Source: Halomonas sp. I5-271120 | GTDB taxonomy: Bacteria > Pseudomonadota > Gammaproteobacteria > Pseudomonadales > Halomonadaceae | Length of the DNA: 64,000 nt | Reading direction: 5' to 3' | NCBI RefSeq assembly: GCF_030553075.1 | Contig: NZ_CP130701.1 | Location: 1,240,001-1,304,000, forward strand | Part shown: piece by piece, positions 3,413 to 48,965 of the stretch | Layout of the letters: every line of letters starts with the position of its first letter | Position numbering within the stretch: the stretch's first letter is position 1 | Translations under genes and position numbers: made by a program | Notes under the pieces: generated by a model | Told to the model about the DNA's origin: nothing | What the model saw: only the letters and a program-made list of their open reading frames with translations | Database searches by the model: none

Positions 3413-4483
3413 ATGGTTGAGCAGAACGTAGTTAATTTACTACATGAAGGCCGCATCGGCCTAGCGCCCATGGAAGGCGTGATCGATGCCCATACCCGCG
3501 CCCTGCTCACCGAGCACCCAGGCTTCGACTGGACGGTGACGGAATTCGTGCGCGTGGTCGACGTGCGCCTGCCGCCGCGGGTCTTCTACAAGCACTGCCC
3601 GGAGCTTATTCAGGCGCCCGACTCCGCGCCTGGCCAGCCAAGGGTCATGACGCCCCATGGTATTCCGGTGCACCTGCAACTGCTGGGCTCGGATCCGGAG
3701 GCACTGGCCGCCAATGCGCGTCAGGCGGTGAGCCTTGGCGCGATCAGCCTCGACCTTAACTTCGGCTGCCCGGCCAAGACGGTCAATCGTCACGACGGCG
3801 GCGCTTCGCTGCTGCGCGACCCGCGCCGCCTCGAGCGGGCCGTGGCCGCGGTGCATCAGGCCGTGGACGGCGCCGTGCCGGTCACCGCCAAGGTGCGCCT
3901 GGGTTTCTCGGACCGCCTGCGAGCCCTGGACTGCGCGCTGGCCGCCGAGCGCGGCGGTGCCGCCTCGCTGGTGGTACATGCCCGCACCCGCGACGAGGGC
4001 TATCGACCGCCGGCCCACTGGGAGTGGATCGGTCGCATCCGTCATGCCCTGCGCATCCCGGTGATCGCCAATGGCGATATCTGGACGCTCGAGGACTACT
4101 GGAAGGCGCGCACCCTGTCCGGGTGTCCGGACGTGATGCTTGGCCGCGGCGCGCTCGCCGATCCCTTCCTGGCCCCACGCATCCGCCACTGGCAGCGCAC
4201 CAACGAGCGTCTGCCCGCTACCCCATGGGCGGTTCGTGCCGACATTCTTGCCACCTATGCTGCATTGCAGCGTAGCACACTCCCCGAGCGTGTCGTGGTC
4301 TCGCTGCTCAAGCAGTGGCTGAACCAGATGCGCGCCCGGGACCCGGAAGCCGCCGGCCGCTTTCAGGTGCTGCGCCGCGAGACTCGCCTGGATCCCTTCC
4401 TGGCCGGCCTGACCGCCAAGAGCGCACCGGCAGAGAGCACCTCTCTCAAGCAACGGCGGCCAGCCACCACCTTAGCCACCTGA
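3413..4483 (+). CDS. dusC: tRNA-dihydrouridine(16) synthase
   Basis: FMN- and NADPH-dependent reductase that makes dihydrouridine in the tRNA D-loop. 356 residues, somewhat longer than the roughly 315 usual for DusC; the excess is a C-terminal tail. The opening IGLAPMEGVIDAHTRALL is typical of the DusC branch rather than DusA or DusB. The catalytic Cys is residue 119 in LNFGCPAKTVNRHDGG, and VIANGDIW and MLGRGAL are the phosphate-binding strands of the TIM barrel. Stands alone, divergent from oadG and convergent with pxpC (7 bp apart). Confidence 0.9.
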   Translation: MVEQNVVNLLHEGRIGLAPMEGVIDAHTRALLTEHPGFDWTVTEFVRVVDVRLPPRVFYKHCPELIQAPDSAPGQPRVMTPHGIPVHLQLLGSDPEALAANARQAVSLGAISLDLNFGCPAKTVNRHDGGASLLRDPRRLERAVAAVHQAVDGAVPVTAKVRLGFSDRLRALDCALAAERGGAASLVVHARTRDEGYRPPAHWEWIGRIRHALRIPVIANGDIWTLEDYWKARTLSGCPDVMLGRGALADPFLAPRIRHWQRTNERLPATPWAVRADILATYAALQRSTLPERVVVSLLKQWLNQMRARDPEAAGRFQVLRRETRLDPFLAGLTAKSAPAESTSLKQRRPATTLAT

Positions 4484-8112: not shown

Positions 8113-8313
8113 TTACAACAACGATTCCTGCTCGCCGTCTTCCTCGGTCTTCTCGCGCTGGATGCGCTGATAGATTTCTTCACGGTGTACTGCGACATCT
8201 TTGGGAGCATTCACGCCAATGCGTACCTGATTCCCTTTCACGCCCAGCACAGTCACGGTGACTTCATCACCAATCATCAAGGTTTCGCCAACACGGCGGG
8301 TCAGGATGAGCAT
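8113..8313 (-). CDS. csrA: Carbon storage regulator CsrA/RsmA
   Basis: Homodimeric RNA-binding protein that binds GGA motifs in mRNA leaders and controls their translation. 66 residues. The start at 8313 gives the canonical [12 protein letters not shown] and has AGAAGGAGA upstream; a longer frame to 8400 adds 29 unrelated residues. The RNA-binding residues Leu4, Arg6 and Arg44 (VAVHREEI) are all present. Lies between lysC and the tRNA cluster, the alaS-lysC-rsmA order of Pseudomonas. The CsrB/RsmZ-like RNA at 18495-18664 is the likely antagonist. Confidence 0.98.
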
Positions 8314-17944: not shown

Positions 17945-18268
17945 ATGACATTCGTCGTCACCGAGAACTGCATCAAGTGCAAGTACACCGACTGCGTGGA
18001 GGTCTGCCCGGTAGACTGCTTCTACGAAGGTCCCAACTTCCTGGTCATCCACCCAGACGAGTGCATCGATTGCGCTCTCTGTGAGCCCGAATGTCCTGCC
18101 GAGGCCATCTTCTCCGAGGATGAACTTCCTGAAGGCCAGCAGGAATTCATCGAGCTCAACGCCGAGCTGGCCGAGGTATGGCCGAATATCGCCGAGAAGA
18201 CAGACCCGCTACCCGACGCCGAGGAATGGGATGGCAAGAGTGGCAAGAAGGAACTGCTCGAGCGCTGA
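17945..18268 (+). CDS. fdxA: Seven-iron ferredoxin FdxA
   Basis: Small soluble electron carrier with one [3Fe-4S] and one [4Fe-4S] cluster, like Azotobacter FdI. 107 residues from the ATG at 17945, preceded by GAGGAAG; a longer frame to 17849 is rejected. By the FdI pattern, Cys9, Cys17 and Cys50 hold the 3Fe cluster and Cys21, Cys40, Cys43 and Cys46 the 4Fe cluster. The order mutS-fdxA-small RNA is that of Pseudomonas. Confidence 0.97.
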
Positions 18269-18304
18269 GACACGGCCATCGACGATGGCCAGGCGTGATC
18301 CACC

Positions 18305-18340
18305 AAAAAGGGCCGGCGAGAAATCGCCGGCCCTTTTTCA
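18305..18340 (+). terminator. fdxA terminator
   Basis: AAAAAGGGCCGGCGA-GAAA-TCGCCGGCCCTTTTT, a near-perfect symmetric hairpin with T-run, 37 nt after the fdxA stop. Confidence 0.92.
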
Positions 18341-18494
18341 TGCTGCTCCGTCCTGACTCGCGCTGAGCGCGCTGGTGATTGACGAAGAAGCGTCTAAACA
18401 CCGCTGCCATGCCATCAGAAAACGGGTCGAGTCGTCAGCTGCAGGACTTGTACGGCTCAACTTGCGTGCAGGCAAGCGTGTAAAAAACGGGCAC

Positions 18495-18518
18495 AAAAAA
18501 GGCGACCCGAAGGTCGCC
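18495..18518 (-). terminator. Terminator of the RsmZ-like RNA
   Basis: Minus-strand GGCGACC-TTCG-GGTCGCC followed by six T: 7-bp stem with a TTCG tetraloop. It defines the RNA's direction and 3' end. Confidence 0.9.
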
Positions 18519-18664
18519 CGCTCCTAGCCGTTCCTTGAGCATGTCCCTATGCTCGACTCCTGAGGTGACTTCCTTGCCCGGGAACGACTTCCTGTCGCAC
18601 CAGGCGCACCCGACTACCATCCCGTTGCATCCTGCCGGGAAAGCATCCTGCTTTCCCACATCCC
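18495..18664 (-). ncRNA. rsmZ: CsrB/RsmZ-family regulatory RNA (CsrA-sequestering)
   Basis: No gene explains this stretch, but the minus strand reads as an RNA of about 170 nt with some eleven GGA motifs, seven as AGGA, ending in a strong terminator. Several GGAs sit in hairpin loops: GGGAAAGC-AGGAT-GCTTTCCC (18637-18657), CGAC-AGGA-AGTCG (18585-18597) and GCAT-AGGGAC-ATGC (18539-18552). CsrA dimers bind exactly such loops. Position next to fdxA, on the opposite strand and after mutS, is the position of rsmZ in Pseudomonas aeruginosa (mutS-fdxA-rsmZ-rpoS); here eno replaces rpoS. The 5' end is inferred from a promoter-like pair at 18671-18698. RsmY or RsmX-type is possible; the synteny favours RsmZ. 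Confidence 0.88.
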
Positions 18665-18670
18665 AAGCAC

Positions 18671-18698
18671 ATTGTGGCAGCTATGACGGGGTTCTCAA
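18671..18698 (-). promoter_or_regulatory. Candidate promoter of the RsmZ-like RNA
   Basis: Minus-strand TTGAGA (18693-18698) and CACAAT (18671-18676), 16-bp spacer, predicting a start at about 18664. The -10 is weak, as expected for an activator-dependent promoter. The DNA upstream (about 18720-18815) is strikingly AT-rich, which may bind IHF or an H-NS-like protein. Confidence 0.5.
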
Positions 18699-18836
18699 GC
18701 CGGCCTAAGAGGGAGAAAACACCTTGCTCCTTATGTACTAGAAACCTAAAAACCATTTTTATCAGATACTTATAAAAAAACAAGCGTTTTAGAAGCGATC
18801 ATTTATTGATCAATGCCAAGTATATCGGGTGCAAGT

Positions 18837-18854
18837 TGTCGGTAATCTCTTACA
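18837..18854 (-). promoter_or_regulatory. GacA-like upstream activating sequence
   Basis: TGTCGG-TAATCT-CTTACA matches the GacA consensus TGTAAG-N6-CTTACA in 10 of 12 positions (right half perfect). Its centre is about 180 bp before the predicted RNA start, the distance I recall for Pseudomonas rsmZ genes. It lies on the far side of the AT-rich stretch. Confidence 0.7.
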
Positions 18855-18907
18855 AGCAATGAGGACATGAGGCGCACTCGCTCGAGCGCATACCATTGCC
18901 AGACACG

Positions 18908-18933
18908 AAAAAAGGCGCCCGCAGGCGCCTTTT
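18908..18933 (-). terminator. eno terminator
   Basis: Minus-strand AAAAGGCGCC-TGCG-GGCGCC-TTTTTT, 40 nt after the eno stop. Separates eno from the GacA-like box. Confidence 0.9.
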
Positions 18934-18972
18934 CGTCTTACCTTTTTTGTCATGTCACTGAGTATAGCGAGC

Positions 18973-20280
<1,308 letters not shown>

Positions 20281-46909: not shown

Positions 46910-47120
46910 GCCGATCCGCGCAGCCGCAACGCCGCGCGTGGCCGCGGCGGCAGGCATCCACCTGCCGCCGCCTGGCCAAGGTTGAATTCCCCCTCCCCCG
47001 CCCACACCTTTCCTTCACGTTACCAACGATAGCTTTCATGGCGTCCGTCCGACCGCTCACCGCATCCCGGACGCCCAAGTCACCGGGAGTGTCATCGCTC
47101 CCACTACGGAGTCCTTCTCC

Positions 47121-47639
47121 ATGACCACGATCGTATCCGTACGCCGCGGCGACCAGGTCGCCCTGGCCGGTGATGGCCAGGTCTCACTGGGCAACACCGT
47201 CATGAAAGGCAACGCCAGCAAGGTGCGTCGCCTCTATCGCGGCCAGGTGCTGGCCGGTTTCGCCGGCGGCACTGCCGACGCCTTCACCCTGTTCGAGCGC
47301 TTCGAAGCACAGCTCGAGAAATACCAGGGCCACCTCACCAAGGCCGCTGTCGAACTCGCCAAGGAATGGCGCACCGACCGCGCCCTGCGCCGTCTCGAGG
47401 CGCTGCTGGCGGTGGCCGACAAGAACGCTTCGCTGATCATCACCGGCAACGGCGATGTCGTGGAACCCGAGCGCGGCATCATTGCCATCGGCTCGGGCGG
47501 CAACTATGCACTGTCCTCGGCCCGCGCCCTGCTCGAGAACACCGAGCTGTCGGCCCGTGACATTACCGAGAAGTCCCTGGAGATCGCCGGCGACATCTGC
47601 GTCTTCACCAACCACCACATCACGCTGGAAGAGCTCTGA
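47121..47639 (+). CDS. hslV: ATP-dependent protease subunit HslV (ClpQ)
   Basis: Threonine peptidase of the HslUV protease. 172 residues. After Met removal the N-terminus is [20 protein letters not shown] with catalytic Thr; [15 protein letters not shown] and [12 protein letters not shown] follow. hslU begins 3 bp after the stop. These genes are heat-shock controlled in E. coli; upstream, GTTGAA near 46980 and a C-rich stretch resemble a sigma-32 promoter only weakly, so I do not call one. Confidence 0.98.
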
Positions 47640-47642
47640 GCC

Positions 47643-48965
47643 ATGACCCAGATGACCCCCCGCGAGATCGTTCACGCCCTCGACCAGTTCATCATCGGCC
47701 AGCAGGACGCCAAGCGCGCCGTGGCCGTGGCGCTGCGCAACCGCTGGCGCCGCATGCAGCTCGATGAAGAGCTGCGCCAGGAAGTCACACCCAAGAATAT
47801 CCTGATGATCGGGCCGACCGGCGTGGGCAAGACCGAAATCGCCCGTCGCCTGGCCAAACTGGCCCGTGCGCCCTTCCTCAAGGTCGAGGCCACCAAGTTC
47901 ACCGAAGTGGGCTATGTGGGTCGTGACGTCGAGTCGATCATCCGTGATCTGACCGAGGCGGCGATCAAGATGGTTCGCGAGCAGGCCAAGGAAGAGGTCG
48001 GTCACAAGGCCGACGATGCCGCCGAGGAGCGCATCCTCGACGCCCTGCTGCCGCGGCCGAGGGGCAGCGAGTACGACAGTGCCCGGGACGACACCTCGAC
48101 CCGCCAGGTCTTCCGCAAGAAGCTGCGCGAGGGTCAGCTCGATGACAAGGAAATCGACATCGAGATCACCCCGCAGAGCGGTGGCATGGACTTCAATACC
48201 CCGCCGGGCATGGAGGAGATGGCAAGCCAGCTGCAGAGCATGTTCTCCAACATGAACAAGCAGAAGACCGAGACCCAGCGGGTCGCGGTCAAGGATGCCT
48301 GGAAGCTCCTGCGCGACGAGGAAGCCGCCAAGCTGGTCAACGAGGACGACATCAAGCATCGCGCCATCGAGGCGGTGGAGCAGCACGGCATCGTCTTCCT
48401 CGACGAGATCGACAAGGTCGCCAAGGGCCAGCAGGGCAGCGGCGGCGAGGTATCCCGCGAGGGCGTGCAGCGCGACCTGCTGCCGCTGATCGAGGGCTCG
48501 ACGGTCTCCACCAAGCACGGCATGGTCAAGACCGACCACATCCTGTTCATCGCCTCCGGCGCCTTCCATCTGGCCAAGCCTTCGGATCTGATTCCGGAGC
48601 TCCAGGGCCGGCTGCCGATCCGGGTCGAACTCAACGCCCTGTCGCCGGAGGACTTCCAGCGCATCCTCACCGAGCCGTCCGCCGCCCTGACCAAGCAGTA
48701 CCAGGCGCTGATGGCCACCGAGGGCCTCGAGATCGCCTTTACCGACGATGGCATCAAGCGCATCGCCGAGATCGCCTGGCGGGTCAACGAAGGCACCGAG
48801 AACATCGGCGCCCGTCGCCTGCATACCGTCATGGAGCGCCTGCTCGAAGACGCGTCCTTCAAGGGTGGCGACATGGAAGGCCCGCTGACCATCGACGCCG
48901 CCTATGTCGACTCCCAGCTCGGCGAACTGGCCATGGACGAGGACCTGTCGCGCTACATCCTCTGA
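47643..48965 (+). CDS. hslU: ATP-dependent protease ATPase subunit HslU
   Basis: AAA+ unfoldase that feeds HslV. 440 residues. Walker A GPTGVGKT at 57-64, pore motif GYVG in [11 protein letters not shown], the I-domain insertion, Walker [10 protein letters not shown] and the C-terminal RYIL tail that docks into HslV. Partner of hslV in a two-gene operon. Confidence 0.99.

Follow-up and report, generated by a model that had tools for sequence, protein, structure and literature searches.

What occupies the gap between fdxA and eno in Halomonas sp. I5-271120? In the window, by which we mean the whole 64,000-nucleotide stretch of DNA analyzed here, the fdxA stop at 18268 and the eno stop at 18973 (minus strand) leave a gap of 704 bp, as read on both strands. 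A preliminary description of this sequence had placed an RNA of the CsrB/RsmZ type in a gap of about 700 bp, and the gap does hold a real, conserved, and previously unannotated gene. This gene of about 170 nt is located on the minus strand (18495..18664), contains 11 GGA motifs, and has a predicted 5' end about 7 nt past its -10 box. In the Csr/Rsm pathway, GacS phosphorylates GacA, and the GGA loops of small RNAs bind CsrA dimers, freeing mRNAs. The small RNA RsmZ combines repeated GGA loops with a terminator. We assign a probability of about 90% to the reading that the gene encodes the Halomonadaceae counterpart of rsmZ and csrB, a small RNA under GacA and IHF control that titrates CsrA; we infer its transcription, the binding of GacA and IHF, and the sequestration of CsrA.

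The gene is flanked by the convergent fdxA (17945..18268, plus strand; NCBIfam NF045490 above cut-off) and by eno upstream on its own strand (18973..20268, minus; named from the protein sequence, with orthologues in relatives). A promoter-like TTGAGA-N16-CACAAT sequence is found at 18671..18698 (minus), and its counterpart is aligned in relatives, with variants such as CACACT and CAGAAT. The intrinsic terminator carries a UUCG loop (18500..18519, minus, with the U-tract running to 18495); all of its 8 pairs are formed in 100% of the cells in 30 aligned sequences. Scanning the gap returned one promoter-like site where 0.3 are expected and two terminator-like sites where 0.9 are expected. The promoter, the TTCG-capped terminator, an AT-rich stretch (18780-18741, 75-85% AT), and about eleven minus-strand GGA motifs had all been named in the preliminary description, and each of them is present. 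We counted 11 GGA motifs at 18664-18495 (minus), compared with shuffle means of 5.0 (single-base) and 5.9 (dinucleotide) for the same 170 nt; 11 of 5000 and 12 of 5000 shuffles, respectively, reach this number. The GGA count alone is unusual rather than unique, because two further places bring to three the number in the 64-kb window with at least 9 GGA per 170 nt, all on the minus strand. These two stretches, at about 46945-47163 and 48497-48710, may be coding.

It is hardly credible that the region represents an untranslated leader, a read-through product, or an unannotated peptide gene instead of a free small RNA. Such a reading can point to eno, which lies upstream on the same strand, and to mechanical minus-strand open reading frames of 74 and 78 amino acids that overlap the region. 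However, eno is followed by an inverted repeat with a T-run, GGCGCC-TGCG-GGCGCC-T6, likely its terminator (18908..18931, minus; read in the sequence, as the scan listed the plus-strand side only), and fdxA, the downstream gene, is on the other strand. The promoter-like site and the terminator are conserved among relatives, and the aligned RNAs measure 173-182 nt, with differences of single bases and compensatory changes in the stems.

We compared the locus with its closest relatives in an alignment (A1) of the best 30 loci from a DNA search; L031, L036, and L049 had been left out before the first alignment, and L032, L033, L035, L037, and L064 before A1. The promoter aligns, the GGA loops are conserved, and the stems change. 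The possibility that close relatives would keep no GGA loops or terminator, raised in the preliminary description, is not borne out: loops, terminator, and promoter are retained, and the GacA box is retained in most. Strong covariation is found in five helices of the 30 related sequences. Covarying pairs support hairpin 1 (18637..18657, minus), with a GGA in its loop at 18648-18646; a composite stem (18564..18610, minus) with outer GGTG/CACC and inner GCCTGG/CCGGGC pairings and GGAs at 18592 and 18573; and an inner hairpin (18584..18598, minus) with an AGGA loop at 18593-18590. Hairpin 4 (18537..18554, minus), which presents an AGGGAC loop, shows double changes in 5 of 6 pairs in A1. The claim of at least three hairpins with GGA in the loop thus holds for 18657-18637, 18598-18584, and 18554-18537, all within the conserved fold.

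In the 37-pair structure, 94.8% of the A1 cells are paired, against 41-53% with the partners slid, a comparison in which the structure is favored, since we drew it on the sequence from the window, guided by an RNAalifold result. Double changes occur at 19 of 37 pairs, and the covariation score is 0.342 versus 0.194 +- 0.009 after shuffling. One of the five covariation measures, that of further pair types, was matched by 70 of 500 shuffles. The A1 loci are related to each other, so that the shuffle controls overstate independence. With diverged members added, in an alignment fitted to a covariance model, 93.5% of the cells are paired, double changes occur at 32 of 37 pairs, the score rises to 0.602 versus 0.220, and no shuffle reaches any of the five measures. 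Alignment A2 drew on 53 chosen sources, which gave 46 matches, 45 of them distinct.

In the fold supported by covariation, 10 of the 11 GGA motifs are unpaired. Six motifs are in register in every one of the 30 sequences, and the other five in 29, 26, 22, 10, and 8 of them, respectively; within four columns, a GGA is present in 26-30 of the 30 sequences for all eleven motifs. Conservation is higher in unpaired GGA columns than in other unpaired columns (0.94 versus 0.75, p = 4e-6). Folding of the lone sequence reproduces the consensus incompletely, with an unpaired probability of at least 0.7 for 5 of 11 GGAs and below 0.2 for three. A 253-nt stretch folds better than shuffled sequences (z = -2.28, with 3 of 200 equally good).

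We then asked how known RNA families score at this place. At gathering scores, Rfam recognized three tRNAs only in the whole 64-kb window; at E values up to 10, 22 sub-threshold matches were listed for the region 18300-18990. The best-scoring of these, ar35 (26.8 bits, cut-off 45, 18301-18416), was set aside, as it covers the terminator side of fdxA. RF00166 (PrrB_RsmZ) matches 18601-18493 (minus) with 14.8 bits at E 0.58, below its gathering cut-off of 44 and behind several unrelated families, and because of this rank and E value we did not use it as homology evidence. In the whole genome, RF00166 gave no match at E <= 0.001 and RF00018 (CsrB, gathering cut-off 71 bits) none at E <= 1. As for the Rfam check suggested in the preliminary description, the RsmZ and CsrB models do not recognize the RNA. 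Since both score tests failed, we file the RNA in neither family; our Halomonadaceae covariance model describes a candidate new RNA family. We ran cmscan on 20 fdxA loci as a positive control. RsmZ was found in 9 of 9 Pseudomonas loci at 72-141 bits (nine taken from 20 fetched Pseudomonas-named loci), and was absent from the Atopomonas, three halomonad, and seven other fdxA loci. The placing of rsmZ beside fdxA in Pseudomonas, as given in the preliminary description, is seen in all nine loci scanned. Because the control finds rsmZ at the Pseudomonas fdxA, the halomonad RNA can be said to occupy the rsmZ place with a sequence that the model fails to recognize.

These scores bear on a second alternative, that the gene encodes some different type of conserved small RNA, such as an Hfq-dependent base-pairing RNA that is GGA-rich by chance. 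Some support comes from the loose Rfam list, where other small RNA families match below threshold, some with better E values than RsmZ. We nevertheless consider this very unlikely, given that the GGA loop columns are conserved above other loop columns while the stems change, that a GacA box and an IHF-like site lie at a spacing like that of rsmZ and csrB, and that fdxA is the neighbor, as for rsmZ.

How widespread is the RNA? In the DNA search, 83 of the 151 family genomes showed similarity; many of the matches cover RNA and promoter, and some the terminator only. Our covariance model R1, which spans 18670-18495 on the window's own RNA and scores it at 197 bits by construction (the sequence is included in the model), finds a match at E <= 0.01 in 122 of the 151 family genomes. 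In 111 of 151 the match reaches at least 51 bits, which leaves 40 of 151 without a strong one; the E values of the remaining 11 of the 122, between 1e-4 and 1e-2, are such as chance matches also have. Over the order, 18 of 293 genomes match at E <= 1e-4, among them 11 halomonads at 65-197 bits. The other seven, outside the family, score 26-34.5 bits and were rejected as homologues; fdxA, eno, and mutS are absent within the ~3 kb fetched. One of these outside matches overlaps a cspA thermoregulator, and two weak R1 matches in one genus overlap PhrS-like RNAs. Two genomes that share a genus have PhrS-type small RNAs above the Rfam cut-off (L194 1316-1576 and L195 1258-1518). Pseudomonas rsmZ loci score at most 21 bits with R1, and unrelated places reach as much as 34.5 bits; for this reason we do not treat R1 scores under about 35 bits, Pseudomonas rsmZ included, as homology. 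The window's own genome holds one strong R1 copy. Its next best match, at 20 bits, was rejected as a second RNA of this type, being within the range of matches at unrelated places.

Gene order is retained along with the RNA. The same convergent fdxA-RNA-eno arrangement is present at 30 of 30 close loci and at 18 of 20 diverged halomonad loci chosen from the R1 match list (L213 has a 2.1-kb gap); the other two have eno only within the stretch. Among named Halomonadaceae loci, R1 matched 6 of 9, with no match on L031, L036, and L076. In the Salinicola loci L031 and L036, fdxA and eno are separated by only 108 and 228 bp without the RNA, and L217-L219 resemble them, with gaps of 100-228 bp and the RNA absent. 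These short gaps of the Salinicola type apparently reflect loss of the RNA. Copy number varies as well: three R1 copies lie in the fdxA-eno gap of Larsenimonas L049 (3492-4216), seemingly identical with L192 2143-2867, and three in that of L193 (1952-2667). Cobetia L064 carries two RNA copies (3520-4245), the second scoring 24 bits and preceded by a perfect GacA box. In L226 (genome G067), a perfect GacA box and 10 GGA per 170 nt were seen in the 1000 nt beyond fdxA, read antisense to it, where R1 gives no match; this stretch may be a still more diverged form of the halomonad RNA.

We next turned to the control region. The GacA box TGTAAGAGATTACCGACA, of the form TGT-N12-ACA, is located at 18837..18854 (minus), deviates by 2 mismatches from TGTAAG-N6-CTTACA, and is centered at -181.5 from the predicted start at 18664, much as in the preliminary description, where such a palindrome lay about 180 bp upstream. 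The own genome contains 21 such places compared with 36 for a reversed control pattern, and we rejected the box from this genome alone as evidence. As it is no rarer there than the control, its weight comes from the relatives. Of the 38 RNA copies in halomonads, 31 are preceded within 260 nt by a box with at most 2 mismatches, where shuffles give 0.29 on average and never more than 3. Counted from model base 1, the box mostly starts between -182 and -187, and 21 of the 38 copies have 0-1 mismatch. The box is perfect in L027, L028, L030, and one L064 copy; the seven copies with no box of at most 2 mismatches are L006, L025, L026, the three of L049, and one of L064. In the nine Pseudomonas rsmZ loci, the box starts at -180 to -192, always with at most 2 mismatches. 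The diverged loci L197, L198, L205, L207, L208, and L211 show 3-5 mismatches. Four of these, L197, L205, L207, and L208, all belong to genus g15 and keep the RNA with no box under 4 mismatches in the gap, which suggests that the RNA of this genus is under another regulator.

In 7 of 38 copies (L008, L013, L014, L027, L028, L030, and L032), a second, degenerate box with 2-3 mismatches was seen, its start exactly 22 bp ahead of that of the main box. In the window, a tandem box was rejected, as that place has 8 mismatches where the 7 copies have at most 3. Excerpts of PMC4682653 place a TGTAAG half-site 16 bp ahead of the csrC box in E. coli, which gives the same start-to-start distance as between the two halomonad boxes.

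Between box and promoter, the AT-rich stretch overlaps an IHF-like site, TAAGTATCTGATA (18760..18772, minus), at a distance of 82 bp from the GacA box, counted from the box's first base. The site at 18772-18760 shows 1 mismatch to the IHF consensus. At most 1 mismatch is found between box and promoter in 23 of 30 halomonad loci versus 5.2 expected from dinucleotide shuffles, in 18 of the 23 at -102/-103; the same search in Pseudomonas gave 7 of 9 loci versus 1.6 expected, all 7 at -107/-108. With at most 2 mismatches allowed, a site begins 80-83 bp past the box in 27 of the 30 halomonad loci, in 8 of the 10 diverged loci, and in 7 of the 9 from Pseudomonas, compared with averages of 0.99, 0.29, and 0.42 and maxima of 7, 2, and 4, respectively, for other offset windows. 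Sites were first sought in both orientations, and the single orientation and the 80-83 bp range were chosen afterward; as they were picked from those loci, the counts of 27 of 30 and 7 of 9 are not an independent test. The 10 diverged loci were new to the IHF count, 9 of them already known to have a GacA box. In E. coli K-12, the csrB box is at -191, and a sequence that matches the IHF consensus exactly begins 89 bp after the box, at -102. Excerpts of PMC3985676 report that the corresponding AT-rich stretch of P. aeruginosa binds MvaT, 56 bp past the GacA site. Judged from its sequence, the halomonad control region may be bound by IHF, by an H-NS-like protein, or by both.

The protein partners are encoded in the same genome. 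CsrA, the presumed target, is encoded at 8113..8313 (minus; NF002469, 121 bits, cut-off 73; PF02599), just where it had been claimed. A GacA protein is found at C1:68267-68896 (286 bits, cut-off 280) with receiver and LuxR-type DNA-binding domains. The best GacS/BarA match is a 919-residue kinase, which at 642 bits falls below the BarA cut-off of 890 and has the domain order HisKA-HATPase-receiver-Hpt. CsrA, GacA, and the GacS-like kinase, the conserved GGA loops, the control sites, and the fdxA neighbor together support the original proposal of a CsrB/RsmZ-type RNA. In the mechanism we envisage, a GacS/BarA-type kinase would phosphorylate GacA, which in this form would occupy the box centered at about -182. 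IHF would bend the DNA at about -100 and so bring the GacA box to the promoter. The RNA would be made from its own promoter and ended at its own terminator, and could then present up to about ten GGA motifs, binding CsrA dimers and titrating them away from mRNAs.

Does the RNA share its ancestry with rsmZ? We regard it as the positional and promoter-level counterpart of rsmZ and its probable functional counterpart, and by score it is not an RF00166 member. A CsrA sponge of independent origin could have arisen at the halomonad fdxA locus, with the same function and a different ancestry, and the RNA bodies indeed fail to align significantly (at most 21 bits for R1 on Pseudomonas, 14.8 for RF00166 here). 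This seems unlikely to us, since neighbor and strand are the same as for rsmZ, the start of the box falls between -180 and -192 in Pseudomonas and mostly between -182 and -187 in halomonads, and the 80-83 bp from box to IHF-like site is common to both. Common descent with Pseudomonas rsmZ is thus likely, as argued from neighbor, strand, and promoter layout and not from similarity of the RNA sequence.

A more far-reaching version of this reading appears evenly balanced to us: that the RNA belongs to a sponge class specific to Halomonadaceae with its own covariation-supported fold, is maybe the only CsrA sponge of the genome, and owes its expression to an ancient module with fixed spacing, made up of GacA box, IHF site ~82 bp on, and promoter, common to Pseudomonas rsmZ and, at 89 bp, to E. 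coli csrB, the promoter being still recognizable where the RNA has changed beyond recognition. The notion of an only sponge is based on genome searches with R1, RF00166, and RF00018 and on a GGA count after the other 20 GacA-like places. These were rejected as sponge loci, with at most 6 GGA per 150 nt in the 330 nt past each box, in both directions. Our comparison suggests that the promoter layout outlasts the RNA sequence. If this is true, promoter-anchored searches could find missing gammaproteobacterial CsrA sponges, and the layout of GacA box and IHF site makes it possible to look for CsrB-type RNAs overlooked by sequence models.

Halomonadaceae include the bioplastic producer H. bluephagenesis (excerpts of PMC13101641). 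For Halomonas anticariensis, a 2020 review lists GacS/GacA for quorum sensing, exopolysaccharide, and biofilm, with the small RNA given as "unknown" (PMC7366521). The RNA described here is a concrete candidate for this Halomonas GacS/GacA small RNA and is found in most sampled family genomes. In titles and the beginnings of abstracts in the open literature, partly the best 10 of 97 and the best 8 of 3,163 matches, none reported a CsrB/RsmZ-type RNA in Halomonadaceae; an earlier in-silico prediction is possible. A 2006 paper reportedly predicted CsrA-regulating small RNAs in silico.

Finally, we compared the halomonad RNA to known systems. In Pseudomonas, rsmZ lies just past fdxA on the opposite strand in 9 of 9 loci, and the halomonad RNA likewise adjoins fdxA. 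Both share a GacA box at about -180 to -192, and 7 of the 9 Pseudomonas loci have the IHF-like site 80-83 bp past the box, as in halomonads. Unpaired GGA motifs are also mentioned for RsmZ in excerpts of PMC2375449. The two RNAs differ in length (about 170 nt versus 133 positions in the RF00166 model), in RF00166 score (14.8 bits versus 72-141 for the Pseudomonas loci, cut-off 44), and in the -10 region, which is CACAAT-like in halomonads and TAGTAT, TACTAT, or TAATAT in Pseudomonas. Moreover, eno adjoins the halomonad RNA, whereas no eno match is found in the Pseudomonas loci (flanks to 3 kb). Azotobacter is listed with multiple copies, RsmZ1-7, in a table of PMC7366521; set against this number from the review table, L193 and Larsenimonas L049 also have multiple copies, three each, whereas the window's own genome has a single strong R1 copy. 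E. coli CsrB is annotated with 369 nt and lies between syd and yqcC (MG1655), compared with about 170 nt between fdxA and eno here, and its box-to-IHF spacing is 89 bp versus 80-83 bp in halomonads. According to excerpts of PMC4682653, the UvrY box of csrB is centered at -183/-182, and CsrB is about tenfold lower without IHF. The halomonad RNA resembles E. coli csrB in both positions, with a box center at about -182 and a match to the IHF consensus at about -100.
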